From a virus: a stretch of DNA of 34,383 nt. The notes below the pieces were generated by a model that worked only from the letters and a program-made list of their open reading frames with translations, did not search any database and was not told the DNA's origin. The position numbers were made by a program, and so were the translations under genes. Position 1 is the first letter of the stretch. Each line of letters opens with the position of its first letter. This document shows, piece by piece, positions 5,955 through 30,635 of the stretch. The stretch covers positions 1-34,383 of IMG/VR virus record IMGVR_UViG_3300032931_001006; one strand, given 5' to 3'.

Positions 5955-6158
5955 ATGTGGAAATCAAAACATAAACATCACCCAAAAGTAAATCGTAATA
6001 ACACCGACCAATACTACTGGAATGTTATTTTGGTGAGAGAAGAATTGGGGGTCACCAGAGTGGTAAAGGGTGATGGCGTAGTCCGTTCCAAAAAAAGAAA
6101 ATCGAGACAGGCCCACAACACAATTCTGGCGCGATTTTGCCCAAAGCCAGATATATAG
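5955..6158 (+). CDS. small basic hypothetical protein
   Basis: The 67-residue ORF starts MWKSKHKHHPK and is rich in Lys, Arg and His. It has no SD, but a -10 box ends 10 nt upstream, so near-leaderless expression is plausible, as for several other genes here. The charge and the position beside the 11-bp repeat array suggest a DNA-binding or regulatory protein. No homologous family is recognised and a chance ORF cannot be excluded. Confidence 0.4.
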   Translation: MWKSKHKHHPKVNRNNTDQYYWNVILVREELGVTRVVKGDGVVRSKKRKSRQAHNTILARFCPKPDI

Positions 6159-12427: not shown

Positions 12428-12457
12428 ATGGCACATTCTCCATAAGTGTGGTATAAT
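12428..12457 (+). promoter_or_regulatory. leaderless promoter of tnpB 2
   Basis: The extended -10 TGTGGTATAAT (12447-12457) ends 6 nt before the ATG at 12464. An ATGGCA box precedes it with an 18-nt spacer. The spacing matches that of tnpB 1 exactly, so both transposon genes appear to be leaderless. Confidence 0.65.
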
Positions 12458-12463
12458 ACCAAC

Positions 12464-13576
12464 ATGCGAATGGCCTATAAGTTCCGTATCAATCCAACGA
12501 AACATCAGCGTATATTGCTCAACAATACGTTGGAACTTTGCCGTTGGGTCTACAACGAAACACTTGCTACTCGCAAGAATGCCTGGGAACAGGAAAAGAA
12601 ATCTATTTCCTGCTACGATACAATCAAATTGCTTCCAGGCTGGAAAAGAGAAAATCCAGGATTGTCGCAGGTTTACTCTCAGGTTCTTCAAGATGTGACC
12701 ATGCGCGTCGATCTGGCATTTAGTGCCTTCTTTCGACGTGTAAAAGCAGGAGAAAAACCAGGATATCCTCGTTTTCGCGGGTATGGTCAGTATGATAGTT
12801 TTACCTATCCCCAAACGGGCTTTGCTCTCGCTAACGGACTGGTTCTTTCGAAGATCGGTACAGTCAAGATCGTCCAGCACCGCCCAATTGAAGGGAAGAT
12901 CAAGACTCTGAACATCCGCCGGGACGCAGTAGGAAATTGGTATGCATGTTTCTCGTGCGACGTTGAACCTATACTACTTCCAGAAAACCCAAAGGCGATC
13001 GGCATCGATGTTGGCCTTTCTAGTTTTGCTACCCTCTCCACCGGCGACAAGATTGCTAATCCCCGCTTCTTTCGTCAGAGCGAGAAGGAACTTGCAAAGA
13101 CACAACGGAAACTCTCGAAGGCGGAGAGGGGCACGCCAGAACGGGCGAAACGCAGATTGGCGGTTGCTCGTGTTCACGAACGTATTGCTAACCGTCGCCG
13201 TGATTTTGCTCATAAACTCTCCCGCCAACTGGTAAACGAATATGGGATCATCGCTCTTGAAAAGTTGAACATAAAAGGAATGCTTCAAAACCACTGCCTC
13301 GCGAAAAGCATCTCGGACGCAGCCTGGAATCAATTCGCGCTATACACTCAATACAAAGCCGAGAATGCTGGTAGAGAGTGCGCATCGGTTCCTTCCAAAA
13401 ACACGTCTAAGATGTGTTCGCGGTGTGGCAATTTGGTCGAGAAAGATTTGTCCGTTCGTGTTCACGATTGTCCTGTGTGTAGTCTAAAAATGGACCGAGA
13501 CGAAAACGCTGCTATCAATATTTTGGCATCGGGGCTACGATGCCTGGGTGCAAGCCCTAGAAGCCCCCGGCTTTAG
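12464..13576 (+). CDS. tnpB: TnpB, RNA-guided nuclease of an IS605-family element
   Basis: The 370-residue protein has RuvC-I GIDVGLSSFA (Asp182), RuvC-II IIALEKLNIKGM (Glu266), a zinc ribbon with CSRC (318/321) and CPVC (336/339), and RuvC-III MDRDENAAINIL (Asp346). All catalytic and zinc residues are intact. The ATG at 12464 follows the promoter by 6 nt and is preferred to an upstream GTG. The stop lies inside the right-end hairpin, so coding sequence and guide-RNA scaffold overlap. The N-terminal half (FRINPTKHQRILLNNTLE...YNETL) belongs to the OrfB_IS605 type and differs from TnpB 1, so this is a separate acquisition. Confidence 0.92.
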   Translation: MRMAYKFRINPTKHQRILLNNTLELCRWVYNETLATRKNAWEQEKKSISCYDTIKLLPGWKRENPGLSQVYSQVLQDVTMRVDLAFSAFFRRVKAGEKPGYPRFRGYGQYDSFTYPQTGFALANGLVLSKIGTVKIVQHRPIEGKIKTLNIRRDAVGNWYACFSCDVEPILLPENPKAIGIDVGLSSFATLSTGDKIANPRFFRQSEKELAKTQRKLSKAERGTPERAKRRLAVARVHERIANRRRDFAHKLSRQLVNEYGIIALEKLNIKGMLQNHCLAKSISDAAWNQFALYTQYKAENAGRECASVPSKNTSKMCSRCGNLVEKDLSVRVHDCPVCSLKMDRDENAAINILASGLRCLGASPRSPRL

Positions 13577-15089: not shown

Positions 15090-15552
15090 TACCGCAGTGT
15101 TTATTTTAGCAGTCTATCCCCTGGTTGGACAGCCAGAATATCAAGATAATCTTGCTAAAACTATCAAGGTCGTACAAAAACTTGGCTTTGAGCCTTATGT
15201 TGTCTCTCAACATGATGAACTCTTAATAGAAGCCAACTTGTTTATCAAGTTGGTTGCTCCCTGTTCTCCACTTGAGGCTATTAAGTCATATTGGAAACAA
15301 TACAATTTTGTGTTGATGGACGATGTAGTGTTTGATTCTGGCAATTTGGTCGATATGTTCGAGGAACTTCATCTACCGCGCGTATATGTTTCACTAAATC
15401 TGCGCACATTGGCGGTTGGATTCGAGAATGATGGTACTGATTGGTTGAGATGGATGGGGGAATTGAAAGATCACAAACTCGTTTCTGTACCATTGTCAAT
15501 CTTAAATAACTCTACCAAACTGGAACTTCCATGCGCAACTACGATTTCGTAA
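15070..15552 (+). CDS. hypothetical protein, possibly a short glycosyltransferase-fold protein
   Basis: The 160-residue protein begins with a strand and helix (AVFILAVYPL...NLAKTIKVVQKLGFEPYVVS) and has NFVLMDDVVF (about 78-87), a hydrophobic strand ending in DD as in GT-A domains. It is short for a full enzyme. AAGGAAA precedes the ATG. It overlaps the next gene, a glycosyltransferase-methyltransferase fusion, by 22 nt, and could work with it. The assignment is tentative. Confidence 0.6.
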   Translation: MDRNPRNTAVFILAVYPLVGQPEYQDNLAKTIKVVQKLGFEPYVVSQHDELLIEANLFIKLVAPCSPLEAIKSYWKQYNFVLMDDVVFDSGNLVDMFEELHLPRVYVSLNLRTLAVGFENDGTDWLRWMGELKDHKLVSVPLSILNNSTKLELPCATTIS

Positions 15553-17024
15553 TCTCCGCGTCCTGTTACTTGAGTCCCCAGAATACTATTCGGATGCTAA
15601 AAAGTATTCCAATCATCAAGGCGCGCGTACTACCCATCATTACCTGCCCGCGCGTAGAAGATGCCTGGACAATTATGGCTTACGCCCGAAAGGCCTCGTT
15701 TCCAATAATAATTCTGCATTCTCGGTTGACCAGCCGTTATTTCTGTCAATCCATCGCCTTTGTGTATTGTGTTGAGCACGGAATAACCGGAAAATATTTC
15801 GGTATAGTGGACGACGATATTGAGTTTACAGATGGCGATTTGCTTTCCCATATCAATTCCTGCGCCTCGTTTTCTACCTTTGCGTTTTCGTCCAATCAAA
15901 TTGTTTATGGTTTCAGTTTTATGATTGGCACATATATATATGGTGAATACCACGAAGATCCACCCTGGTTAGATGCACACAATTTGTTTTCGCGATGGGA
16001 AGACAATCTTGCCGCCGGCCTGCCGGATTGCACCACCGGCGTTGATAATGCTGCCTTCGTTGACATAGAATACCAGCATCGCCTGCATTTATTGACGGGT
16101 AAACCGCCGGTAGGCTGTACATATCAACCCATTCTTCACCATACCCGTGTAGACAGTATGGAAGCCTCTCGTGGAAACAGAAATATCGTGATTGATGGCT
16201 ATCGTCTTTGGACGGAGAAATTCGGGCTTGCTCTGGATGGCGCGATGATGGGTTCGGGAATGAACTTTGGATGGCATGATGTATATAAAGCGCTATGTCA
16301 AAAACATTTTCTTCCACTTTATAAAAAACACCTAATTTTTGGGGGATTGTGGACTGATTGGGACGCGATATGGCAAAAATATGGTCAAGAAATCACAGTC
16401 ACATACGAGGTACTAACAATGAAAAGAACAACTCCCGAGATAGTTGATTATCCACCATTTACGGGGAAAGCATTGAGATTGGGATTAGCGCAAGGCTATC
16501 TTTACTCATGGGAGGTTTTGACTATCCAGGTGTTCACACACGCTCTTCCGCCAAACGCGGTCGCAATAAATATTGGGGCCGGCGCCGGAACTTCTGGCTT
16601 GGCTATGGCAGAGGCGCGCCTGGACCTAATCCCAAATATTTATACAGTAGACGTGGCCGAAAACAATCGGGTTCTCGGGCTGGTCGCCGAACGGAACTCT
16701 TTTAGCAAATACCATATGCCTTTAGTAAATCAAATCCATGGCGATAGTTACAACGTGGGAATGTGTTGGGATAAAGGGCCCGTGGACATGGTATTTGTGG
16801 ACGGCGATCATTCCGTGTACGCGGTTGAACGCGATGTTCAGGCTTGGCTTCCACATATTAAAGATGGCGGTTTTATGCTCTTTCATGATTACGATCATGC
16901 TATGTATTCGGGTCTTAAACCTGCCGTCGATCGCTTGATGGCTGACCACGAGCAGCTTATGGTTGTGGATCTCCTGGCCGTCTATCGTGTACGTAAACTA
17001 GAAAACAAAACGAAGGAAGGATAA
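15531..17024 (+). CDS. glycosyltransferase-methyltransferase fusion protein
   Basis: The 497-residue protein has two parts. Residues 1-295 form a GT-A-like domain with YFGIVDDDIEF (DDD at 94-96) and SSNQIVYGF. From Met297 a class I SAM methyltransferase follows: INIGAGAGTSG (346-356), NIYTVDV, DMVFVDGDHSVYAVERDV, and WLPHIKDGGFMLFHDYDH, the Methyltransf_24 pattern. Met297 (16419) has GAGG 8 nt upstream and may also start a free methyltransferase. The same domain is repeated in the next gene. I infer sugar transfer coupled to methylation of the product. Confidence 0.82.
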   Translation: MRNYDFVISASCYLSPQNTIRMLKSIPIIKARVLPIITCPRVEDAWTIMAYARKASFPIIILHSRLTSRYFCQSIAFVYCVEHGITGKYFGIVDDDIEFTDGDLLSHINSCASFSTFAFSSNQIVYGFSFMIGTYIYGEYHEDPPWLDAHNLFSRWEDNLAAGLPDCTTGVDNAAFVDIEYQHRLHLLTGKPPVGCTYQPILHHTRVDSMEASRGNRNIVIDGYRLWTEKFGLALDGAMMGSGMNFGWHDVYKALCQKHFLPLYKKHLIFGGLWTDWDAIWQKYGQEITVTYEVLTMKRTTPEIVDYPPFTGKALRLGLAQGYLYSWEVLTIQVFTHALPPNAVAINIGAGAGTSGLAMAEARLDLIPNIYTVDVAENNRVLGLVAERNSFSKYHMPLVNQIHGDSYNVGMCWDKGPVDMVFVDGDHSVYAVERDVQAWLPHIKDGGFMLFHDYDHAMYSGLKPAVDRLMADHEQLMVVDLLAVYRVRKLENKTKEG

Positions 17025-17025
17025 C

Positions 17026-17691
17026 ATGACAATAATTATCGATCGTGAAGTAGAAACAGACGCAAATGGTATCGCCATTTCCAAAACCAATTATCGACCG
17101 TTCACCGGCGGAGCATTGAAGTTGGCCGCGGCAGTTGGCTTTCTTTATCCCTGGGAGGTTCTTGTTCTTCAGGTATTTACCCGCGGGTTGCCCCTAAACG
17201 CCGTCATTGTGAATATTGGCGCAGGCGCAGGCACGTCCAGTCTGGCTATGACAGAAGCGCGCATGGATCTGATAAAAAACATTTACTCAATAGATATTGA
17301 GGGAAAAGACAATCCCAGGGGCAGTTTGGTTGGAGAGCAACACGCCTTTACTCAATACAATACGCCGCTTATCAATCAGATTCTGGGCGACAGTTACGAT
17401 GTGGGAATGGCGTGGGATAAAGGTCCCGTAGACATGGTTTTTGTGGATGGCGATCATTCGGCCAAAAGTGTAGAGCGTGATATTCAGGCCTGGTTACCGC
17501 ATATCAAGGATGGCGGTTATATGTTGTTCCACGATTATAACAATCGCGTATTTCATGTTCTGAAACCCGTCATCGACCGTATGATGTCCAAACACGAATT
17601 GATCGTGATTGTGGATACGGTGGCTGTCTATCGGATCAGCATCCATAAACCTGTAAAGAGAGGACGTAAGCCCAATGTACAAAAAGAGTGA
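17026..17691 (+). CDS. class I SAM-dependent methyltransferase, duplicate of the upstream domain
   Basis: The 221-residue protein repeats the C-terminal domain of the preceding fusion. The shared blocks are PFTGGALKL, YPWEVLVLQVFTRGLP, VNIGAGAGTSSLAM (SAM motif I), QILGDSYDVGMAWDKGPVDM, FVDGDHSAKSVERD, and WLPHIKDGGYMLFHDYN. Similarity extends to the DNA, so the duplication is fairly recent. It begins 1 nt after the upstream stop. The two copies differ around the loop after motif I (VAENNRVLG versus IEGKDNPRGS), so substrates may differ. The C-terminus is basic (KPVKRGRKP). Confidence 0.85.
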   Translation: MTIIIDREVETDANGIAISKTNYRPFTGGALKLAAAVGFLYPWEVLVLQVFTRGLPLNAVIVNIGAGAGTSSLAMTEARMDLIKNIYSIDIEGKDNPRGSLVGEQHAFTQYNTPLINQILGDSYDVGMAWDKGPVDMVFVDGDHSAKSVERDIQAWLPHIKDGGYMLFHDYNNRVFHVLKPVIDRMMSKHELIVIVDTVAVYRISIHKPVKRGRKPNVQKE

Positions 17692-17857
17692 GATTGTCGC
17701 CGGCTTTGCCTGGGCCAGTGTTTTGCTTATGCCCTGGTTTATGATATTGGGAGTTGTTGCCGTAACGTGGTTGAGTTCCGGAGCGTGGGTATTCTTTCTG
17801 GTGGTGGCTATTCTGGCCAGCGCGATGCAGCATGGGGTGGAAGTGAAAAAACCATGA
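17675..17857 (+). CDS. small membrane protein
   Basis: The 60-residue protein has two hydrophobic stretches (FAWASVLLMPWFMILGVVAV and WVFFLVVAILAS) and a short basic tail. It overlaps the methyltransferase gene by 17 nt and the next gene by 4 nt. Unknown function; topology suggests a membrane anchor or accessory for the glycan enzymes. Confidence 0.6.
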   Translation: MYKKSEIVAGFAWASVLLMPWFMILGVVAVTWLSSGAWVFFLVVAILASAMQHGVEVKKP

Positions 17858-18006
17858 CTACATTTCAGAAAATAGGATTGCTTCTGGTTCTTGTTTCACT
17901 AGCATTTCTTCCGAAAATAGATAGCACAGTTGAACAACTTGCGTTGGTAGGGCTGTGGTATCTTGGTGTTTTTTTGTTTCTGTGGGAAAATGAGGCAAAG
18001 AAATGA
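17854..18006 (+). CDS. small membrane protein
   Basis: The 50-residue protein has two hydrophobic segments (IGLLLVLVSLAFL and LALVGLWYLGVFLFLW). It is linked by 4-nt overlaps to the genes on both sides (ATGA at each junction), a sign that it is translated as part of the operon. No family is recognised. Confidence 0.6.
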   Translation: MTTFQKIGLLLVLVSLAFLPKIDSTVEQLALVGLWYLGVFLFLWENEAKK

Positions 18007-18959
18007 CCTTGCGCGTTAAGATGGTTCCGGAGCTGAAACAGGTAGAAAAGGGAGAAAGCGGTATTATCACCATTATCCGCAAATATGCCAAGCATTTCCC
18101 TGCCTATGATATGGAATTGGTCGGCAAAGATGTCTCGGAATTTGACCTGTATGCAGTCCATGCTGGTATGCAGGATGCTAGATATCCGGCAAATATCCCG
18201 ACCGTCGCCCACTGTCATGGCGTCTACTGGACCAGCATGTACCAGGCCTCTCAATGGGAATGGTCGGCCAACGCGGACGTAATAAACTCGCTCCGTCACG
18301 CCCACGTTATTACCGTTCCGTCTACCTGGGTCGCAGAAACCATTCAACGCGATATGCACAGAAACCCCGTGGTTCTTCCACATGGAGTGGATTGGAATGA
18401 GTGGCAGCATCAAGAGGCAAAACAAGGATATATTATTGGGTACGCCAAGAATCGTGCCGGCCAGGACGTCTGTAACCCAGCCTATCTAAATCCTCTGGCG
18501 TCTTCATTTCCCAATATCAAGTTCTTGTCAACATTTTCCCCCGAAAATCCACCGCCGAACATCGAGATTACAGGAGTTCTCCCTTACGAGCAGAACAAGA
18601 AAGTAGTACAGCGCGCGGATATGTTTGTGTCCTGCACTCGCGAGACCTTCGGCATAGCCATTCTGGAAGCCATGGCCGCCGGCCTGCCTATCCTTGGCTG
18701 GCGTGAGGGCGGTTTGGTGGATCTAGTGTTGCATGGGGTTAATGGATATCTGGCACAACCTTACGATTACTCCGATTTGGTACAGGGTATGGCGTACTGT
18801 ATCCAACATCGTGTCGCGCTAGGTGCTAATGGGCGTGAGATGGCGCGTAAGTGGACTTGGGAAAAAGTATGCGCGCAGGTTGCCGATATTTATCGGAGCG
18901 CAATACAGAAGGCGAGAATACCATCTATGACTGTCGATCCAATTCTTTATCGGCTTTAA
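18003..18959 (+). CDS. GT4 family glycosyltransferase
   Basis: The 318-residue protein is a GT-B glycosyltransferase, shorter than typical GT4 enzymes because the N-terminal domain is reduced. It has AHCHGVYWTS, TVPSTWVAETI, VVLPHGVDW (the start of the second domain), NIEITGVLPYEQ, and the signature TRETFGIAILEAMAAGLPILGW with the E-x7-E pair, then VNGYL. It likely transfers a sugar from a nucleotide donor onto a surface or lipid-linked acceptor. It starts at an ATGA overlap, and its last 35 nt overlap the antisense HNH gene. Confidence 0.88.
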   Translation: MTLRVKMVPELKQVEKGESGIITIIRKYAKHFPAYDMELVGKDVSEFDLYAVHAGMQDARYPANIPTVAHCHGVYWTSMYQASQWEWSANADVINSLRHAHVITVPSTWVAETIQRDMHRNPVVLPHGVDWNEWQHQEAKQGYIIGYAKNRAGQDVCNPAYLNPLASSFPNIKFLSTFSPENPPPNIEITGVLPYEQNKKVVQRADMFVSCTRETFGIAILEAMAAGLPILGWREGGLVDLVLHGVNGYLAQPYDYSDLVQGMAYCIQHRVALGANGREMARKWTWEKVCAQVADIYRSAIQKARIPSMTVDPILYRL

Positions 18960-19518
18960 TATGACAATCTCTACACAGAGGAATTATATCAAGCCAATGT
19001 TCTCTTTCGTAGCCAAGATAATGATGGTATCCAATCGCAATATTATTGCAGCACTTACATTCTTGGGTATTTACTTTTGGCAACCTCTCAGATTGAACTT
19101 CAGTGTTTACCTTCCCGCGCGCTTTTCTGCGATTTGGATATTTGTCGCGGTTATTTTTTTGGACTTTTCTGCCTTTTTCGCTAAGTTCCCAGAGTTTTTT
19201 GCGAAGTTTGGTTTCTGGTCGTTCATTATCATGTTTAACTGCTTGTTTTCTTTTTTCGGACTTGAGGTATTCTTCGCGGTGTTTTTGGCGTCTATCGGCA
19301 ATTTCATTTTGGTGTTGAATTTTATAGATTGCAGTTCTATCTCTATCCTTTTTAAGCCGTTCTTCATAACTTTTTTGGCCTCTATCTGTTTTTCTCCATT
19401 TTGCCCCTGCAATTTTTTTGCATTTTTCGCATGGTTTTGTCAAAATATCATTATAACAATAGAACTCAGAACTTGGTTTGAAAGTTTGGCATTTATTACA
19501 AAATATTTGTTCTTCCAT
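18925..19518 (-). CDS. HNH endonuclease, free-standing homing type
   Basis: The 197-residue protein begins at an ATG with GGAGG 7 nt upstream. Its N-terminal zinc site uses Cys7, Cys10, Cys30 and Cys33. A long Lys/Arg/Glu-rich helical region follows (about 45-145), and a C-terminal HNH-like domain holds CKCC, GYHHYLGYE, IPLCRDCH (Cys182, Cys185, His186). It lies antisense inside an otherwise plus-strand operon and overlaps the GT4 gene end by 35 nt. Such free-standing HNH genes invade phage genomes. It lacks the GCCGGC palindrome common elsewhere, consistent with separate origin. Confidence 0.85.
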   Translation of the reverse strand: MEEQIFCNKCQTFKPSSEFYCYNDILTKPCEKCKKIAGAKWRKTDRGQKSYEERLKKDRDRTAIYKIQHQNEIADRRQKHREEYLKSEKRKQAVKHDNERPETKLRKKLWELSEKGRKVQKNNRDKYPNRRKARGKVNTEVQSERLPKVNTQECKCCNNIAIGYHHYLGYEREHWLDIIPLCRDCHIKADKELDRQS

Positions 19519-19557
19519 ATAGCCTCCGTAAACAAAATTGCCCTTGTTTCCCGAATG

Positions 19558-19635
19558 TGTCACCAAGCGGTCTACAAGAGCAATTTTATATATTATAATT
19601 TATGGTCGGGAATAAAGCAAGCCCGCTTGGTGACA
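19558..19635. repeat. 13-bp perfect inverted repeat flanking the HNH promoter
   Basis: TGTCACCAAGCGG (19558-19570) and its exact complement CCGCTTGGTGACA (19623-19635) are separated by 52 nt that contain the predicted HNH promoter. One arm would be in the 5' leader and the other just upstream of the -35 box. Confidence 0.85.
19592..19620 (-). promoter_or_regulatory. predicted promoter of the HNH gene
   Basis: TTGCTT (19620-19615), a 17-nt spacer and TATAAT (19597-19592) lie on the minus strand, about 75 nt before the HNH ATG. Perfect inverted-repeat arms flank it. Confidence 0.65.
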
Positions 19636-19669
19636 TCTTTATTATACACTAATGAGAGGAATTTGTCAA

Positions 19670-21850
19670 ATGGGCTGTTTGCATGATCCATTGGTAACTG
19701 TAGTAATACCTTGTTTTAATTATGCTAATTATGTAGAACGATCCATAACAAGCGTTATGAATCAGACTTACAATAATCTGGAGTGCTTTATCGTTGACGA
19801 TGGTAGTACCGACAATTCCAAAGATGTAATTGTCAAGGCAATTGAACATGACAAACGGTTCGAATATATCTATCAGTCTAATTGCGGCGTAGCGGTTGCT
19901 CGAAATCATGGTATTTCACTGGGGAAGGCCCCATTTATTTTGTGCCTCGATTCTGATGACTGGATCAAGTCGGAATTTATTCAAGTATGTGTTGAACCTT
20001 TATTAAAAGACCGTTCGTTGGGTATCTCGTTTACCAGCATGGAGGCTGTAACTCCTGATGGAAAGATATATCAAACGCGCTGGCCACCAGATGTTCCTTT
20101 ATTTGATCAACAGGTAGCGGGGCAGAACCAGGTGCCAACCTGCTGTGTATTCCGTCGCGAGGTGTGGGAAAATTTGGGAGGGTATCGCGCGCGCTATGCG
20201 CCCGAAGGATGTGGATCGGAAGACGCCGAACTCTGGCTGCGTATGGGTGCTAATGGGTGGGGATATACCAAGGCATCTACCGCGCGTATGTTTAGTTATA
20301 GCCTTGGAGGTAACACAACCAAAAGCAGAGATTATCGAGAACCCAACTGGACGTCTATGCACCCATGGACAATGGACAAACAACACCCAATTGCATCTCT
20401 AGCGACTGCGGCGCGTGGCAGCCATCCCGCACGTATCTACGATACCCCCGCAATCAGCGTAATAATCCCAGTGGGCCCTGGACACGAGTTGGATATTATA
20501 GAGGCGATAGATAGTTTAGAAGCACAGGACTTCAGGATGTGGGAAGTAATACTTGCGCTGGATGGAGTAGACGAGCAGATTATCGCGCCCGTGTTGAAAT
20601 CCTATCCATTTGCGCGTGTATTCCGCACCGAGAATGGGCCAAGGGGCGCCGGCGCAGCGCGTAACCTGGGGGCGAAGAATGCTCGGGCGGGGTTGTTAGT
20701 GTTTCTGGATGGCGACGACTATCTATTACCGGCTGCGCTTTCCTCTATGCTCCAGGAATTTAGCAAAGAAGAATCAATCGTGTATGGAGATTGTGAGGCT
20801 TACGCGATCATTGACGACGTTACGAAACTGGACGAACGGATGCAAAGGAATATTTTGGAGCGTAACAAGAAAACCAAGAAGACCTACATACGTTTTCCCG
20901 CCGCAGATTACAATTGCGAACTCGCTCAATCTATGCCCAACAGCGATGATCCAGAAAGTTTATATCTCGTTGCTCATGTTACCTGCCTTCTGCCAAAACT
21001 TTGGCATGATGCCATTGGTGGATTTGATGAAGAGATGGTTTCGTGGGAAGACATCGATTGGCACTGGCGATTATCCAAGGCAGGCTATTGTTATCGCCGC
21101 CTACACCAGGATATTTTTGTATACCAACTTGGATCTGGCAATCGCAGAGAAAAGGGTAGACAAAACTGGCAATCTTTGTTACAATATCTAAAAGATAAAC
21201 ATGGAGGATTGAAAATTATGCCTTGCAAATCTTGCGGTGGCGGCGGCTCCGGAAATCCTCCGCCCATCAAAAAAATTTATCCTGGAGAAGTCGCGAAGGA
21301 GAACTCTATGGCACGTTTTACTGACGATCAAGTCGTCTTAGCGGAGTATATGCACCCCAATCGTGGGCAACACGAGGTAGTGGGGGGTGCTACAAAGACA
21401 AAGTATGGATATCGCGGGGGTGGAGAAGTATTTATGGTACATATTGACGATATCGCTGCCCAACCGATGTATTTCCGTCAAGTTCGCCTGGACAATGTAA
21501 TCGTTCCCAAAGCAGAGGTTCAGTTACCTCCACCGCCGCCGACGATCGTCAATCCGGCACAACCAGCAATGCCTATTCCCAAACCGCCCACAACCGAATC
21601 TGTTCCACTCGATCTCCTCGCTGACGCGGTAGAGATTGCAAAACCTTTCCTGGACGAATTGGAAGAAATGGATGTCGATGTTATTCCAGGCGTTACACAG
21701 GCGATCTCGAAGCAGATGCGCGAACGAGGCATTACCACGCCCCGAACCATCATGGATTCCGGGATCGAGGGACTACAAGAATTAAAAGGTGTGGGCCCCA
21801 ACCGTGCCGCAGCGATTGTAGGGTGGGTTGCAGGACGCGTAGGGCTGTGA
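19670..21850 (+). CDS. tandem GT2 glycosyltransferase fused to a C-terminal helix-hairpin-helix protein
   Basis: The 726-residue protein has three parts. Residues about 5-250 are a GT2 domain (VTVVIPCFNYANYVERSI, VDDGSTD, LDSDDW). Residues about 265-500 are a second GT2 domain (ISVIIPVGPG, ALDGVDE, FLDGDDYLLP). From Met517 comes a phage-type region starting MPCKSCGGGGSGNPPP, with a proline-rich linker and a C-terminal helix-hairpin-helix (LQELKGVGPNRAAAIVGW). That Met (21218) has GGAGG 10 nt upstream, so a 210-residue free form is likely too. I prefer the ATG at 19670 over 19652 because GAGAGGA lies at the right distance. The combination of sugar transferases with a DNA-type HhH is unusual. 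Confidence 0.8.
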   Translation: MGCLHDPLVTVVIPCFNYANYVERSITSVMNQTYNNLECFIVDDGSTDNSKDVIVKAIEHDKRFEYIYQSNCGVAVARNHGISLGKAPFILCLDSDDWIKSEFIQVCVEPLLKDRSLGISFTSMEAVTPDGKIYQTRWPPDVPLFDQQVAGQNQVPTCCVFRREVWENLGGYRARYAPEGCGSEDAELWLRMGANGWGYTKASTARMFSYSLGGNTTKSRDYREPNWTSMHPWTMDKQHPIASLATAARGSHPARIYDTPAISVIIPVGPGHELDIIEAIDSLEAQDFRMWEVILALDGVDEQIIAPVLKSYPFARVFRTENGPRGAGAARNLGAKNARAGLLVFLDGDDYLLPAALSSMLQEFSKEESIVYGDCEAYAIIDDVTKLDERMQRNILERNKKTKKTYIRFPAADYNCELAQSMPNSDDPESLYLVAHVTCLLPKLWHDAIGGFDEEMVSWEDIDWHWRLSKAGYCYRRLHQDIFVYQLGSGNRREKGRQNWQSLLQYLKDKHGGLKIMPCKSCGGGGSGNPPPIKKIYPGEVAKENSMARFTDDQVVLAEYMHPNRGQHEVVGGATKTKYGYRGGGEVFMVHIDDIAAQPMYFRQVRLDNVIVPKAEVQLPPPPPTIVNPAQPAMPIPKPPTTESVPLDLLADAVEIAKPFLDELEEMDVDVIPGVTQAISKQMRERGITTPRTIMDSGIEGLQELKGVGPNRAAAIVGWVAGRVGL

Positions 21851-21851
21851 T

Positions 21852-21974
21852 ATGGACGCTACCATTATTTGTGTTGGAACGACTAGTATAGCAATATCTA
21901 TTATTGTCTGCTGTATTTTAGCTTTTCGTGAACTTCGGAAAGTTAAAGGACAATTGAATAATGATGGATATTAA
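21852..21974 (+). CDS. small single-pass membrane protein
   Basis: The 40-residue ORF has one hydrophobic segment (TSIAISIIVCCILAF) followed by charged residues (RELRKVKGQ). It begins 1 nt after the upstream stop and ends 3 nt before the next gene. The close packing supports it as real; no SD is obvious. Confidence 0.5.
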   Translation: MDATIICVGTTSIAISIIVCCILAFRELRKVKGQLNNDGY

Positions 21975-21977
21975 TTT

Positions 21978-22736
21978 ATGATTACTGTTTCTTTGGGCTG
22001 GGGACGTCAAAGTTTTTGTTTGTTAACAATGTCTGTGTTCGGTGATCTTCCACCTATTGATTTCGCTGTTTATGCAGATACTACACATGAAAGTAAATTG
22101 ACCTATGAATTTGCTGCACGATGGACACCTTGGTTACAAGAACATGGAATAGTAGTAGTAATAGTAGGTAGTCACCCCAAGATGGCGATTGTAGATAAAT
22201 ATGGTGGATGTCAATTACCTTGCTATACCCTCAACGAAAGAGGAGTAGGGCGAATTCGCCGGCAATGTACTCATGAATGGAAAATACGTCCAATCCGTCA
22301 ATGGTTGCAGGCAAACCGCAATAAAAAATCCGTGGAACAATGGATTGGCATCAGCCTAGATGAATTTCAGCGGATGAAACCTAGTAACGTAAAATACATA
22401 ACTCATCGCTGGCCACTTATTGAAAAGAGAATGACACGTTATGATTGTGAATTATACTTAGCACAACATGGAATTGAAATACCGCCAAAAAGTGCTTGCA
22501 CTTTTTGTCCATTTCATAATACTGCTGAGTGGAGACAAATCAAAACAATACCCGAGGATTGGGAAGAGGCAACAACAATTGATCGAGCAATCCGTAAGGT
22601 TCGCCCGCCTTGGGATTTGTTTGTACATCCATCATGTAAGCCGCTTGAAGAAGTTGATCTACGAACTGATCAAGATCGAGGGCAATTGCAATTTGAAGGA
22701 TGGGACGCGGAATGTACAGGATTGTGTGGGGTGTAA
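21978..22736 (+). CDS. phage PAPS-reductase-like (adenine nucleotide alpha-hydrolase) protein
   Basis: The 252-residue protein fits the phage branch of the PAPS reductase/DndC-like superfamily. A modified PP-loop, SLGWGRQSF (5-13), is followed by FAVYADTTHES and LNERGVGRIRRQCTHEWKIRPI. It then has WIGISLDEFQRMKPS and IPPKSACTFCPFH, the Cys-x-x-Cys-P motif that in relatives carries an iron-sulfur cluster. Superfamily members activate substrates with ATP, as in sulfur incorporation or base modification. No dnd or dpd partners lie nearby, so the role is unknown. The ATG lacks an SD. Confidence 0.8.
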   Translation: MITVSLGWGRQSFCLLTMSVFGDLPPIDFAVYADTTHESKLTYEFAARWTPWLQEHGIVVVIVGSHPKMAIVDKYGGCQLPCYTLNERGVGRIRRQCTHEWKIRPIRQWLQANRNKKSVEQWIGISLDEFQRMKPSNVKYITHRWPLIEKRMTRYDCELYLAQHGIEIPPKSACTFCPFHNTAEWRQIKTIPEDWEEATTIDRAIRKVRPPWDLFVHPSCKPLEEVDLRTDQDRGQLQFEGWDAECTGLCGV

Positions 22737-24435: not shown

Positions 24436-24710
24436 GACGTGTAAAATGGACTGATCCGAATGGATGGATTCATTGTTCGCTAATACGAGACAGTGACCCG
24501 GAAGAGTCCGCCCCCAAAGGCATTCCGTGCGATCCGCCCGACATCAATCGAATAGATTGGGAGGCGGTGAAGCGCGATTTACATAACCTACTCACCGAAC
24601 GCGAGTTGATAACTATGGCGGATATCTATCGCAAGAGTGAGCACATCAGGAGTGCAACGCAAGCGGTTTTGTATGAACGCTTGCTTGAACTCTACAAACA
24701 ATCTCCTTAA
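24432..24710 (+). CDS. hypothetical small protein of the virion module
   Basis: The 92-residue protein begins MRRVKWTDPNGWIHCSL with a beta-like start, then DINRIDWEAVKRDLHNLL and a helical end (TQAVLYERLLELYKQ). Its ATG overlaps the previous stop (ATGA) and it ends 10 nt before the major tail protein. Possibly a head-tail or tail-terminator component by position; unproven. Confidence 0.65.
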   Translation: MRRVKWTDPNGWIHCSLIRDSDPEESAPKGIPCDPPDINRIDWEAVKRDLHNLLTERELITMADIYRKSEHIRSATQAVLYERLLELYKQSP

Positions 24711-24720
24711 GGAGGAACAA

Positions 24721-26229
24721 ATGGGAAAATCTTCAACCCCATCCCAAACCGGCCTAAGCCGTGTGTTTATCATCGAAGGCCGCGCACGAGGAGACCACGC
24801 ACCCCGTTATCAGACCTGTCTGCGTATGGCTGGTATTACTTGGGGACAGGGCGCAATGACTGCGATCGAATGCCCTTCGGACACGAAATATGATGAGTTC
24901 GAGGAAGTTGGCAAGATCAAGGGCGCGAAAGAACGTCCCAGCACCAGCCTGGAGGGTTTATATGCACTGGATGTCAGGAGTGAGTTGCTGCGCATCACGC
25001 GCAAGGGCTGTTCCATTGACGTACAACTGCATTTAGGTGATTGTACAGACCCAACCGCTTTCTCGAAATACAAGAAAGTCTTGATTTGCGAGGATGTTAA
25101 CATCTCGAACTGGACAACCGGAGATCTTGGCGCGCTCGCCTCTGGCGACCGTGCAAAGGTCAATGAAACCGGCGAAATCAGTGCCAAAGACCTGTATGAG
25201 GTTCTGCCATTGACATTCGCGGAACGGGCTGGCTCTATCGTCACGAACGAAGTTCTGGACGTGACCCTGTGTGACTCGGTATCTTGTGGCGAGTGTGATG
25301 AGGAATCGGATGGTTGCCAAAAAGTTTTGGCTATCACCAAAGGTGCAGGTGGTTCTCCTGGCACTCCCCCGGATGTGGTATTCACCATTGACGGCGGAGC
25401 GACATGGTTCGCGCACGATATCGATTCCATCCTTACTGCCAACGATCCAACCGGCATTGCCTGTTTGGGCCTGTATGTGGTTATAACCTGCGCCACCGAG
25501 CTTTCTCTGAACTACGCACTGTTGAGCGAGTTCAATGGCGTAACCGATCCTGCTTTCATCAAGGTCACTACTGGCTTCGTCGCCGGCGGTGGGCCTCAGG
25601 CGATTGACAGCGTGGGCAACTACGCTTTCATCGTTGGGAATGGCGGATATGTGTATGGTACTTCCGACCCAACCGCCGGCGTAACCGTCTTGGATGCCGG
25701 CGTAGCCACTCCGAACACATTGTTCGCGGTGGACGCGTTGAACGATTCGTTCGCGGTAGCGGTAGGCGCAAATAGTACTATCGTAAAAACCGAAGACGGT
25801 ACTACCTGGACGCTCGTGACTCCCCCAACCGGTGTAGCCATTACCTACAACTGTGTCGCTGTAAAGAGCGAGTCAGAATGGTGGATTGGTGCATCGACTG
25901 GCAATCTGTATTACACCACCGACGGTGGTGTGACGTGGGCGATCAAAGCCTTTACTGGCTCTGGTGTGGGTGCAGTAGAAGACATCGTATTTGCAACAGA
26001 TTCGGTTGCCTACCTGTCTCACACAACTGCGGCCCCGCATGGTCGTATCCTGCGCTCTATCGACGGCGGCAATAGTTGGATAGTCTTGCCCGAAAGTACC
26101 GGCACACTGCCGGCAAACGACAAGATCAATGCCATCGTTGCCTGCGCGTTTGATCCTAACAATGTGGTCGGCGGAGGTCTTGCCGATCTTACCGCGGACG
26201 GCTTCATTGTGGTTGGTGTAGGCCCGTAA
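24721..26229 (+). CDS. major tail protein with C-terminal Asp-box beta-propeller
   Basis: The 502-residue protein starts at an ATG with AAGGAGG upstream. The first about 200 residues are a compact beta-rich domain as in phage tail-tube proteins. The rest holds four Asp-box motifs: TIDGGATW (about 222), TEDGTTW (357), TTDGGVTW (399) and SIDGGNSW (446). They indicate a BNR/sialidase-like propeller. Many copies would decorate the tail tube. A hairpin follows the stop. Position just before the tail assembly chaperone and tape measure supports the major tail call. Confidence 0.75.
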   Translation: MGKSSTPSQTGLSRVFIIEGRARGDHAPRYQTCLRMAGITWGQGAMTAIECPSDTKYDEFEEVGKIKGAKERPSTSLEGLYALDVRSELLRITRKGCSIDVQLHLGDCTDPTAFSKYKKVLICEDVNISNWTTGDLGALASGDRAKVNETGEISAKDLYEVLPLTFAERAGSIVTNEVLDVTLCDSVSCGECDEESDGCQKVLAITKGAGGSPGTPPDVVFTIDGGATWFAHDIDSILTANDPTGIACLGLYVVITCATELSLNYALLSEFNGVTDPAFIKVTTGFVAGGGPQAIDSVGNYAFIVGNGGYVYGTSDPTAGVTVLDAGVATPNTLFAVDALNDSFAVAVGANSTIVKTEDGTTWTLVTPPTGVAITYNCVAVKSESEWWIGASTGNLYYTTDGGVTWAIKAFTGSGVGAVEDIVFATDSVAYLSHTTAAPHGRILRSIDGGNSWIVLPESTGTLPANDKINAIVACAFDPNNVVGGGLADLTADGFIVVGVGP

Positions 26230-26306: not shown

Positions 26307-26837
26307 ATGGCTGAAAAGAAATCCCCCGCTTTAGTAGTGGCGCATGAACTTGCAGGCGTCAAAGACGATATCATTATTCTGTCTACGGGATATCGAGCGA
26401 AGATCAAACCGGTCTCTGTCACCCTTGTTGATGCTGCTGTAAGCAAAATCGTAGACCCCGATCCCCCCATGGTTATGATTGAAGATAAGGGCCGAGAAGA
26501 ACCCAACCCTCTCGATCCAAAATATCTCAGGACCCTGAACGAAAACATGCACAAACGTTCTATGGCATCTGTAGATATTATGATCTTGATGGGCGTAAAG
26601 TTGCTCGATCCAATCCCCGAGGATTCGGAATGGCTTATTCCGCTTCAGCAATTACAGCGCTTGGGGCATATCGATCTTTCTATGTATGATTTGAAAGATG
26701 ATTTAGATCGCGAGTTTGTGTTCAAGCGTTTTGTCGCGATTGGCAACGACGACTTGAAGTTGGTGACTGCCCGTATGGGAATCTCGGAGGCTGATATAAA
26801 GGCCGCCGAGGCCGCCTTTCCAGGTAACCCGGCATGA
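26307..26837 (+). CDS. tail assembly chaperone, short (G-like) product
   Basis: The 176-residue protein lies between the major tail protein and the tape measure, the usual place of the chaperone. It has an SD (GGAG). It is helical and acidic, with SEADIKAAEAAFPG near the end. Frame 0 stops at 26835, but an adjacent open frame with no start continues for about 83 codons, so a longer G-T form is expected by frameshifting. It likely coats the tape measure during tail assembly. Confidence 0.75.
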   Translation: MAEKKSPALVVAHELAGVKDDIIILSTGYRAKIKPVSVTLVDAAVSKIVDPDPPMVMIEDKGREEPNPLDPKYLRTLNENMHKRSMASVDIMILMGVKLLDPIPEDSEWLIPLQQLQRLGHIDLSMYDLKDDLDREFVFKRFVAIGNDDLKLVTARMGISEADIKAAEAAFPGNPA

Positions 26838-27090
26838 AGAGCCGATTCAGAATTACCCGGTAAGTTCCAAGAACCAGGTAGACGCAGGTATACGATACTC
26901 GACGCGGTTTGCTGAATTTGAAGCTTGTATTGCGGCCGGCCTGGATTTGTGGAAATGGGAAAGTGGACTATATTATACGCCGTTGTTCAAGGCCTATGTA
27001 GTTACATGGAAAACTCTTCACGAGATGATAGAAATGCACCAGCAAGACGCAACTGCGCAGAAGCAGGAGGAACAAGCCAGGAGTAAGTAA
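26800..27090 (+). CDS. T-like extension of the tail assembly chaperone, read by +1 frameshift
   Basis: This frame is open from 26800 to a TAA at 27088 and has no start codon before Met-Ile-Glu-Met near its end. After the likely slip at TTT-C (26817-26820) it encodes CAG GTA ACC and continues with DAGIRYSTRFAEFEACI, WKWESGLYYTPLFKA and a helical Glu/Gln-rich end. The next gene (tape measure) starts 2 nt after the stop. In phages the T-like domain is made only as a frameshifted fusion. The +1 direction, rather than -1, follows from stops in the alternative frame. Confidence 0.7.
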   Translation, partial: RPPRPPFQVTRHEEPIQNYPVSSKNQVDAGIRYSTRFAEFEACIAAGLDLWKWESGLYYTPLFKAYVVTWKTLHEMIEMHQQDATAQKQEEQARSK

Positions 27091-27092
27091 TA

Positions 27093-30000
27093 GTGTTACA
27101 AGAAACCGGTGTTCAATTCATCAATACAGGGTTAGTCAGCACTTTAGCTGGATTAACCCAATATAATACCGCGTACACGAAGATGACACAAGCGGTGGTG
27201 AATTCAACGCGTACTATAAATAATTCGCTCAACACCGTTACAAACAATTCCAGCAAAAGTTTTTCGCTAATCGGTAGTGTAGTGAATAATTTCTCCAACA
27301 GTTTATCAAATTCAACTGCCGGCGTATCTCGTTTCGGAATGGGTCTCAAACAATTAATTCTGACTATGACTGGTTTTATTTTCTTGAAACGCGTCATAAA
27401 CGATTTGTTTGATAGTTTGCGTAGCCTATGGGACACGATGATTACGGGAGCCAGCAACACAGAATTATTGACTATTCGTTTTCGCAACTTGGTGGCAATT
27501 TCCATTCAAAATACCCAAGGGATTGACGACTATGCCACTGCGCTTACGATGGCACTAAACCCAGCAAAAGACTTGTTGGATTGGGTTAATGTAGTGGCGG
27601 TGAAGACCATCTTTAGTCGAGATGAAGTTGCTACTGTACTCTCGCTCGGTATGGCATTTGATATGACCGCCGGTCAATCAAAAACGCTGACCAAAGCCAT
27701 GATAGACTGGGCATCCGGCATGGGCCTGCAAGATGATGCCTTACAACGTATGGTGGTTAACTTTGGCCAGATGTTGCGTATGGGGAAGATTACCCAACGT
27801 GAATTGCGCGACTTGGCAATTGGTGGTTTGTTCCCCGTCAACGAGGCATTAAGACGTATTGGAGAGCGAGCAGGATTAACGGGAAAGGCATTGTCGGACT
27901 TTATGACAAAGACGGCCACCAGCGGTCTGCCAGTCAATGCCCTTTTGACTGAATTTGTTGCCATCGCTGGAGAACGCTTCCCGGATGCCGGCGAGCGTAT
28001 GGCAAAAACCTGGAAAGGCGTAACCCAGAACATCAAAGACTTTGTTACTACTATTATGGGTGCAGCATTACTTGGACCCACCATGAACAAGATTGTCGGT
28101 TCTCTTTCCGATTTATTAGACCAGGCTCTATCCCCTGCTGTACGCGGAGCGGCTACTGAACTTGGGGAACGGTTGGCAACAAGCCTAGAGAAAGTGTGGG
28201 GGGCAATGAAAAATGTTGCCGGAGCCATGAGCAATCTCGCCCGAGCATTTGGAATACCCATTCCGTCTATTTATGAAGTTGTTGCTGCTGTTGAAGTTTT
28301 TGTAAATTATATTTCGGAAGGACTAAATGATGCCGCGGATGCAGTAAACAGTTGGCTGACTACAACCGGAAGTACATTTTCGAAGGGTGCGCAAGAGTTT
28401 CTACAGTGGGGCCTTGAAATGGTAACACAATTCGCCATTGGTATTATTCAAGGTGCAACTACAGCCTTGGTTGCTGCCATGAATATTATTTCTTCTGTCC
28501 TCGCGTTTTTCTTGGGGCCTGGGTCACCGCCACGTGTAGCTCCCGACATTGATATTTGGGGCGAGAGTGCGATGAACGAGTTCTTAAAAGGTATGACCAA
28601 GGCTGATTTCGACATCTTGAAAGATCTGCAAGGACCATTACAGTCCGCGCTAAACGTTATGGCCGCGCTTGGCCTAATTGCGAAAGATCAAGTTGGACAA
28701 ATATTCTACAATCTCTCTAAACAGATTATCGCTGCTATGCACCAATTTGAGAAGACCGGCAAGGTCAGCGAGGCTTTGTTTGCCTCCATTCATAAAGCCG
28801 GCGGAGCGATGGGAGATGAATTAGAGAAACTGGCGCGTTTACAATTCGCGCTTTTAGCAGCCACCAAGGCGCTTGAGAGAGCGCAAAAGGAATTGAACGA
28901 TGCTCGTACTGCCGATAAAACTGCGGCAAGCCGCGTAGATGCTTTAACAAAAGAATACCGTGATTTGGTAGATGCTGGAGCGAGCAAAGATATCCTGGAG
29001 GCTAAACGCGCGGAAATCAAAGCCGCGATGGACGAACGCGATCAGACCAAAGAGAATATTGCGTTGGCAGAAGATAAAGTAAAGACTGCCGAGGACGTTC
29101 TTGCGCCTCTTAAAGAACAGGTAGCATTACAAGAACAGTTGATTGCGCAGATGATAGCACTAGCTCAAGCCCAGGTTGATGCAGCGGAAGGAGCAGGTGG
29201 TGGTATTGAAAATGTATTCAAAAATATGGGCGATTCTCTTGCAGAATTCAACGAGAATATGGAAGTTACAAAAGTAAAGATGGCCATCGCCCAGGTAGAA
29301 TTCGAGAACAAAATCGATGCAATGAGTCGTAGAATGAGCGTCAAGCTTGGAGAAATTTTTGCGCCGATTGTAGAACAATGGAATAAAGAAATAACTCCTT
29401 CCATTACTAGAATTACCAATTCATTTAATCGCATGTCTGACAATATTGAAAAGATATTTAATAAAGTAAGTGGAAAAGGAAGCGGTGCCGAAAACTTTAT
29501 AAAAGTTCTAGGGAAGATTGTGGGATACATTTTGGGATTTCGTGTCGTCATCGGTATTATAAAATGGATATTTTCTCCGCTGGCTGGAATTTTCGCGACC
29601 GTGGCGAAACATGGAGCGACCATTGGTGGCATACTCAAAACAATAATTGCTATAGGCGGAGCGGTGGTGGCGTTTATTTCTTCGTTATCTTTGTTTACAA
29701 TCGCTGTTATCGCTGCCGTAGTGGTAGCTATAGTTTATATTATATCGCGTTGGGATGTCTTAAAAGAACAATGGCAGGCATTCGTAGATATGCTTGGTGC
29801 TTTCGGGAATTCCCTTTCGCGATGGATGGTAACCGCCTTAGATAAAATCCAAAAGTTTTTTGATGGTGTTCCCGGCGAGATTTCTAAGATTGGTCCAGCA
29901 ATTGGAACCGCTCTCAACAATGTAATTACAAGTTTGGGAGAATTCCTTGGAAATGTAAAAACGTGGTTTGAAAATGTTCTCAAAAAGGTAGGGGAAGGAT

Positions 30001-30635
30001 TGTCCCCCATAGGCGAAGCCTGGAATAATTTCTGGAAAGGCATAAAACAATTCGCTACGGATATCTTTGAGGGGGCTGAAGGTATCTGGGCCAAGATTAT
30101 AGGCTGGCTGGCAGGAGTATGGAATGCCATCGTTATATTCATGGCTGACACACTTGGGGAAACCGGTATCGGTCAGTTTATAAAAGACTTTGTAAAAGCC
30201 GGCGAAGATCTAATTATGGGGTTAGTACAGGGAGTCATCAACAAAGCACAAGAGTTTAAAGATACAATCGTCAATGCGGTAAAAGATGCCTGGAACGGCG
30301 TTATAAATTTCTTAGATATGCGATCTCCGTCTCATTTGTTCGCCAAAGTAGGAAAAAATATTATGGCGGGCATGACACAGGGGATTACGGACGGTACACA
30401 AGGCGCAGTAAATGCTATGATAGGTGCAGCATCTAAAATATCTATGGCCAGTTCTATCTCAGTTAATGCAGCACAAACCGGCAGAAATTACCAGCCCGCT
30501 ACTGTCGCCGCTTCCCCAATTTACAATACCCGTTCATCGAACAAGGTGACGAATTATAATCTCAGTATGGCTACTGCTAAATCAACCGGCAATGTCCAAA
30601 CAGATTTTGCTATAATGGAAACCCTCGCAGGATAA
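27093..30635 (+). CDS. tape measure protein
   Basis: The 1180-residue protein starts at a GTG with AGGAG 10 nt upstream. The N-terminal third holds the tape-measure-type region (LRDLAIGGLFPVNEALRRIGERAGLTGKALSDFM). A long coiled coil rich in Ala, Glu and Lys follows (about 590-780), then hydrophobic helices (about 800-890) and a C-terminal block with DMRSPSHLF and GKNIMAGMTQGI, typical of tape measures. By the usual scaling of roughly 0.15 nm per residue the tail would be near 175-180 nm. It sits directly after the chaperone. Confidence 0.92.
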   Translation: MLQETGVQFINTGLVSTLAGLTQYNTAYTKMTQAVVNSTRTINNSLNTVTNNSSKSFSLIGSVVNNFSNSLSNSTAGVSRFGMGLKQLILTMTGFIFLKRVINDLFDSLRSLWDTMITGASNTELLTIRFRNLVAISIQNTQGIDDYATALTMALNPAKDLLDWVNVVAVKTIFSRDEVATVLSLGMAFDMTAGQSKTLTKAMIDWASGMGLQDDALQRMVVNFGQMLRMGKITQRELRDLAIGGLFPVNEALRRIGERAGLTGKALSDFMTKTATSGLPVNALLTEFVAIAGERFPDAGERMAKTWKGVTQNIKDFVTTIMGAALLGPTMNKIVGSLSDLLDQALSPAVRGAATELGERLATSLEKVWGAMKNVAGAMSNLARAFGIPIPSIYEVVAAVEVFVNYISEGLNDAADAVNSWLTTTGSTFSKGAQEFLQWGLEMVTQFAIGIIQGATTALVAAMNIISSVLAFFLGPGSPPRVAPDIDIWGESAMNEFLKGMTKADFDILKDLQGPLQSALNVMAALGLIAKDQVGQIFYNLSKQIIAAMHQFEKTGKVSEALFASIHKAGGAMGDELEKLARLQFALLAATKALERAQKELNDARTADKTAASRVDALTKEYRDLVDAGASKDILEAKRAEIKAAMDERDQTKENIALAEDKVKTAEDVLAPLKEQVALQEQLIAQMIALAQAQVDAAEGAGGGIENVFKNMGDSLAEFNENMEVTKVKMAIAQVEFENKIDAMSRRMSVKLGEIFAPIVEQWNKEITPSITRITNSFNRMSDNIEKIFNKVSGKGSGAENFIKVLGKIVGYILGFRVVIGIIKWIFSPLAGIFATVAKHGATIGGILKTIIAIGGAVVAFISSLSLFTIAVIAAVVVAIVYIISRWDVLKEQWQAFVDMLGAFGNSLSRWMVTALDKIQKFFDGVPGEISKIGPAIGTALNNVITSLGEFLGNVKTWFENVLKKVGEGLSPIGEAWNNFWKGIKQFATDIFEGAEGIWAKIIGWLAGVWNAIVIFMADTLGETGIGQFIKDFVKAGEDLIMGLVQGVINKAQEFKDTIVNAVKDAWNGVINFLDMRSPSHLFAKVGKNIMAGMTQGITDGTQGAVNAMIGAASKISMASSISVNAAQTGRNYQPATVAASPIYNTRSSNKVTNYNLSMATAKSTGNVQTDFAIMETLAG

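Follow-up and report, generated by a model that had tools for sequence, protein, structure and literature searches.

How could an open reading frame that sits directly before a tape measure gene be translated, when it overlaps the end of the preceding gene and has no start codon of its own in the overlap? The question arises at the right end of the virus record IMGVR_UViG_3300032931_001006, all 34,383 bases of which were analyzed (hereafter the window) and whose tail genes there run in the order tube-like gene, G-like ORF, +1-frame ORF (T) and tape measure gene. Comparison of the window with ten relatives, eleven loci in all, points to an answer: the two frames very probably encode a lambda-type G/GT pair, made by +1 slippage at a UUU_Y site (UUU followed by a pyrimidine). 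The features of the window that bear on this reading, all on the plus strand, are as follows.

24637..26229, plus strand: presumed tail-tube gene (530 aa) 5' of G, with an N-terminal tube part and a C-terminal YCF48/BNR-like repeat region; a homologous ORF is present in 11 of 11 loci.
26307..26837, plus strand: putative G-like tail assembly chaperone (176 aa), the product of ordinary decoding; homologues in ten relatives.
26800..26837, plus strand: overlap in which the G frame and the T (+1) frame are both open, as read from the reading frames.
26814..26822, plus strand: predicted shift site GCC_TTT_CCA (E, P and A codons); TTT in 11 of 11 loci, a single-codon column.
26817..26820, plus strand: slippery tetranucleotide TTTC, with a predicted move of tRNA-Phe from TTT (26817-26819) to TTC (26818-26820); from the alignment.
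26821..27090, plus strand: T-like extension, 89 codons after the predicted shift, with a TAA stop at 27088-27090; from the fused translation, with a conserved F-x-[VI]...P-[IV] start and LDLW.WE core.
27093..30635, plus strand: tape measure protein (1180 aa) with a GTG start at 27093, 3 nt past the T stop; matches PHROG tape-measure families, best E 4.7e-28.

The T frame comprises 96 codons from 26800 to its stop, and the predicted GT fusion, by fused translation, is 260 aa long. The original prediction, made from the window alone, had described 83 sense codons past the G stop without a start codon, a +1 frame open from 26800 and TTT-C at 26817; these statements are exact to the base. Its further observation that the -1 frame "meets a stop at once" is also borne out, the stop lying 8-10 nt after the first T of TTT at the window site. 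The designation of 24637-26229 as a tail-tube gene is our assumption from its position: no tube family among PHROGs matched it, and its match to PF14870 (E 4.6e-5) is under the curated cut-off. A tube-like gene with C-terminal YCF48/BNR-like repeats, that is, a propeller-like decoration built into a tail tube, would be unusual. Elsewhere, the window encodes an IS605 OrfB / TnpB-like transposase with a Cas12f1-like TNB domain (12446-13576). The region that separates it from the structural genes (15531-22736) codes for glycosyltransferases, methyltransferases and a PAPS reductase.

All ten relatives occur in uncultivated viral contigs, with 33-66% identity to the window in G and 26-55% in T. Searches of viral contigs with the window G found one of them (L001) and with a single T sequence none; a profile of two T sequences added three (L125, L126, L127), and a fused G-T profile added six more (L130, L131, L132, L135, L136, L137). 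The fused profile matched 47 stretches, ten of which were confirmed, four of these being already known. Repeats were counted once: the L001 contig, returned also as L003, L060, L123, L124 and L133, was merged into a single locus, and L128, L129 and L134 were dropped as repeats of L125, L127 and L126. The T region of L137, missed by tblastn, was read off the sequence 3' of the slip site, where the same motif is present. Three pairs (the window with L001, L130 with L132, and L136 with L137) are 51-66% identical in G, and the effective number of loci is for that reason nearer eight than eleven. Among annotated phages, tblastn gave no close relative for the G and tube proteins of the window, the G proteins of L136 and L130, or the T of L131, and only distant partial matches (460 records) for the window's tape measure protein; genome contigs held no relative for G or the tube protein. 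A degenerate DNA pattern built around the site matched at least 119 stretches and was set aside as unspecific, as tblastn of six window proteins against 122 loci returned the window and the L001 contig only.

Gene order is read directly from these contigs, and in 11 of 11 loci the G and T frames lie between a presumed tail-tube gene and a long, tape-measure-like ORF. A homologous tube ORF of about 500 aa stands 5' of G in every locus (that of L136 is cut by the contig end), and an ORF of 632-1444 aa stands 3' of T in every locus, identified as tape measure by PHROG in the window, by similarity to the window's protein in four relatives, and presumed to be one from position and length in the other six. 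In L125, whose slip site is at 6003, a second tube-like ORF stands about 2.4-4.7 kb 5' of that site and just 5' of the 499-aa one; it is 758 aa long and matches the window tube with E 5.5e-164. This suggests that the tube gene of L125 has been duplicated.

This arrangement supports the proposal, made already for the window, that the frames encode a tail chaperone, through both gene position and overlap architecture in the window and its ten relatives; a T that lacks its own start and overlaps the end of G is a feature of G/GT pairs, and it is present here. Because neither a significant match to a named family nor a clear fold match was obtained, the term "tail chaperone" is based on where the two frames stand among the tail genes and on how they overlap. 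Neither PHROGs nor Pfam gave a match to the window G or T at E 0.1, and five-member alignments compared with families gave matches to single members only (E 0.034-0.21), from unnamed or unrelated families. Two G models, with mean pLDDT of 77.8 and 86.6, had no Foldseek match at E <= 0.001. Similarity of a G model to the HK97 chaperone 2ob9 was weak (E 2.9), as were the alignments to it (Z 2.9, rmsd 6.5, 100 aligned; also Z 2.7, rmsd 3.7, 79 aligned). In BFVD, named tail or tape-measure chaperones made up 7 of the best 50 matches for one model and 6 of the best 50 for the other, all at E > 0.05.

Is T translated at all? Metagenomic records can contain single-base errors, and a break in frame could in principle be an assembly error or mark a decayed gene; yet the identical break occurs at the identical place in 11 separately named contigs, T being in the +1 frame relative to G in each. 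That relation is a direct observation, as is the coding-like manner in which T has changed, and this explanation has close to no probability. Past the G stop, the log10 probabilities of the T frame remaining open add up to -20.2 over the 11 loci (from base composition, with sequences treated as independent). Over the same region, T-frame differences between the window and L001 number 31 at codon position 1, 17 at position 2 and 45 at position 3 (83, 83 and 84 sites compared), so that changes fall mostly at third positions, the pattern of a translated frame. Conservation of the T protein sets in exactly at the slip codon (F-x-[V/I]) and thus partly before the G stop; a P-[I/V] pair, present in most loci, and the LDLW.WE-like core follow. 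The overlap reads V-T-R in 4 of the first five loci aligned, with synonymous changes in the T and R codons.

The codon at which this conservation begins is itself constrained in G. An in-frame TTT occupies a single alignment column in all 11 loci; it is followed by C in ten and by T in one (L001). Ten loci, the window included, thus present UUU_C at the start of an overlap with a +1-frame downstream product, and L001 presents UUU_U, leaving TTC or TTT as the +1 re-pairing codon in every locus. TTT makes up anywhere from 10 to 77% of Phe codons in the contigs' own ORFs; given each contig's codon use, and treating loci as independent, the probability of TTT in 11 of 11 is about 10^-5.0, and that of a pyrimidine after it in 11 of 11, from the contigs' own usage and under the same treatment, about 10^-5.5. 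Of the degenerate G columns, 43 share one residue across 8 or more of the 11 sequences, and the slip Phe is the sole one among them with a single codon. In the three remaining columns that have four or more Phe residues, TTT is used in 1 of 6, 4 of 7 and 0 of 4. This conservation, which is observed directly, supports TTT-C as the slip codon, as had been proposed from the window, by finding it in the same column in ten relatives. The A-site codon is freer (CCA, TCA, CGC, CCG, CGA, CCG, CGG, CCG, CCA, CGC and CGG in the 11 loci): CGN in five, CCN in five (CCA in the window) and TCA in one, and it is therefore not restricted to CGN.

A constrained codon at the head of T does not by itself fix the direction of slippage, since -2 and +1 shifts lead into the identical frame, and the original prediction had allowed either. 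A -2 shift has a precedent in Mu gpGT (PMC3498833; papers are cited here by PMC number, each for the passages that bear on the point). The two moves would, in contrast, demand different re-pairing partners. The bases available for -2 re-pairing (positions -2, -1 and 0) are unconserved and poor partners (CCT in 6 of 11 loci, otherwise GGT, CTT, CGT, CAT or TGT), whereas the +1 partner is TTY in all 11. Since the -2 partner varies and the +1 partner is fixed, +1 is preferred; that half of the earlier alternative gains support, and a Mu-like -2 shift now appears very improbable. A comparison with homologues, which had been suggested as a check, places T in the -1 frame in 0 of 10 relatives, and the lambda-type combination of a -1 shift with a slippery heptamer was not encountered.

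Independent initiation of T within the overlap, coupled to termination of G, would make a shift unnecessary, and a candidate start can be named: five of the 11 loci (L125, L126, L127, L130, L136) have a GTG whose distance from the first T of TTT is 7 nt downstream. The other six lack it, however (the window and L001 have GTA), and the earliest ATG, GTG or TTG in the window's T frame is a TTG only 110 nt past the G stop. Across the 11 loci there is no conserved T start codon, the finding that bears on the separately initiated T named at the outset as a result that would count against frameshifting. Separate initiation would also leave unexplained why TTT is the only single-codon column, and we regard it as quite improbable. 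(In the five viruses that have it, the GTG probably encodes a conserved Val and is possibly an extra start.)

It is less probable again that the shift takes place at the G stop codon, as in prfB, or at some other codon of the overlap. In prfB and in the tsh genes of Listeria phage (for tsh, PMC5009743), a stop codon strongly stimulates +1 shifting. Here, though, the G stop follows TTT at 12, 18, 21, 33, 45, 51 or 60 nt, depending on the locus, and with so variable a position it is not part of the signal; T-frame conservation, moreover, already begins at TTT. No other codon with full +1 cognate re-pairing was seen in the window's overlap.

For +1 slippage at UUU_Y we propose the following course of events. 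Most ribosomes would read G through to its stop. In some cases a P-site tRNA-Phe, which reads both UUU and UUC, would slip one base forward from UUU to UUC (UUY across the family), after which reading would continue in the T frame to yield a GT fusion. The two products would then form a lambda-type G/GT tail assembly chaperone pair. If the lambda pair is a guide, the G part would serve to coat the tape measure protein, and recruitment of tail-tube subunits would fall to the T part. In this model the movement of the tRNA and how often it happens are predicted, as are the fusion protein and its role.

Stimulators that might accompany the slip site were sought around it, and no universal one was found across the 11 loci. 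Within the 90 nt past the slip TTT, the predicted fold is stronger than in shuffled sequences in five loci (L001, L125, L127, L131, L135; z -2.35 to -3.95), and the window shows no such effect (z +0.65). RNA structure was rejected as a family-wide stimulator, both on the evidence of the window and from a positional scan, in which the mean is similar far downstream; a signal equally present elsewhere in the scan is not specific to the site. The folds in those five loci could be lineage-specific stimulators, as far as folding predictions can suggest. A purine-rich, Shine-Dalgarno-like stretch lies 5' of the site and in most loci ends 17-24 nt before TTT, a spacing too great for stimulation of the RF2 type; it coincides with conserved Glu codons, and for both reasons a role as stimulator is unsupported. 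Nor is the A-site codon of the window, CCA, clearly rare (12.6 per 1000 vs 14.0 for CAG). Usage of the +1 A-site codon exceeds that of the 0-frame codon in 9 of 11 loci, often slightly. No tRNA genes were found in the window. Transcriptional slippage is disfavored because the run of T is short.

Across these 11 diverged sequences, which form an evolutionary series, the only degenerate codon of G that stays fixed is the one in the four-base +1 site, and the family offers a clean test of what else, beyond UUU_Y, +1 slippage needs in prokaryotes. A practical search rule for unannotated GT genes in viral contigs follows: look for TTT then C or T at the place where T-frame conservation begins. A broader idea, which we offer tentatively and consider rather doubtful as it stands, is that UUU plus a pyrimidine is a second standard tail-chaperone signal, kept or reinvented in unrelated bacterial and archaeal viruses, requiring no fixed RNA structure and tolerating nearly any A codon that starts with C. 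If this were true, the conserved signal would barely exceed four bases, and UUU_Y would conceal many of the T genes that seem to be "missing" from unannotated phages.

No study listed in a literature search dealt with TTT-C sites in the chaperones of bacterial phages, which is not a claim of absence from print; Schwartz and Curran reportedly treated UUU-pyrimidine sites in 1997. The lambda G/GT pair resembles the present one in gene position and in having one short and one extended product (PMC5009743), and differs, like most chaperones, in using a -1 shift on a heptamer rather than a +1 shift at UUU_Y. The SPP1 chaperone has a putative -1 shift at UUUUUUC (PMC6316719). Most tail-chaperone frameshifts are indeed -1 according to PMC10885494, whose relevant passages state no general motif for forward shifts. 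Forward shifts do occur among the SEA-PHAGES chaperones, a point of likeness: in the PRFect set, built on SEA-PHAGES chaperone annotations, they account for 350 of 2718 positive training sites (PMC10885494).

The closest mechanistic parallel comes from a eukaryotic RNA virus with an unrelated product. For the +1 site of influenza A PA-X, UCC_UUU_CGU, P-site slippage from UUU to UUC, the movement proposed here, was argued from a junction peptide, and its authors predicted a wider UUU_C class with limited A and E codons (PMC3498833). The present series fits that class, with the differences that its E codon is free and that the A codon of the window is CCA.

Within tail chaperones themselves, +1 shifting at TTT-C is an idea already proposed, for HSTV-2 and for HF1-like haloviruses. 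The HSTV-2 shift is called "very likely +1" in a review (PMC5009743). In this virus (Hafunaviridae) the chaperone is annotated as a joined gene, and its overlap contains TCC TTT CGC in frame with G, nine bases identical to those at the L125 site, whereas its G has no detectable protein similarity to the window family. In the HF1-like haloviruses a TTT-CGC motif lies within a conserved 15-bp region, and TTT-CGn-type +1 shifting has been suggested (PMC7230728). We checked the sequence of HF2, whose chaperone gene reads AAG TTT CGC in the G frame. HF2 is alike in its G/T overlap 5' of the tape measure gene, its +1 frame and its TTT then C near the G stop; it is unlike in that these are archaeal myoviruses, in which the motif was noted in one close group. 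HMMs of the window family did not detect HF2 G, HF2 T or HSTV-2 G (full-sequence scores <= 0.1 bits; for HSTV-2 the comparison covered the G half), and the window family apparently belongs to a different virus group than these precedents. What is added here is a site that stays fixed across great divergence, kept at low protein identity unlike in HF2, and an A-site codon that is CCN as often as CGN.
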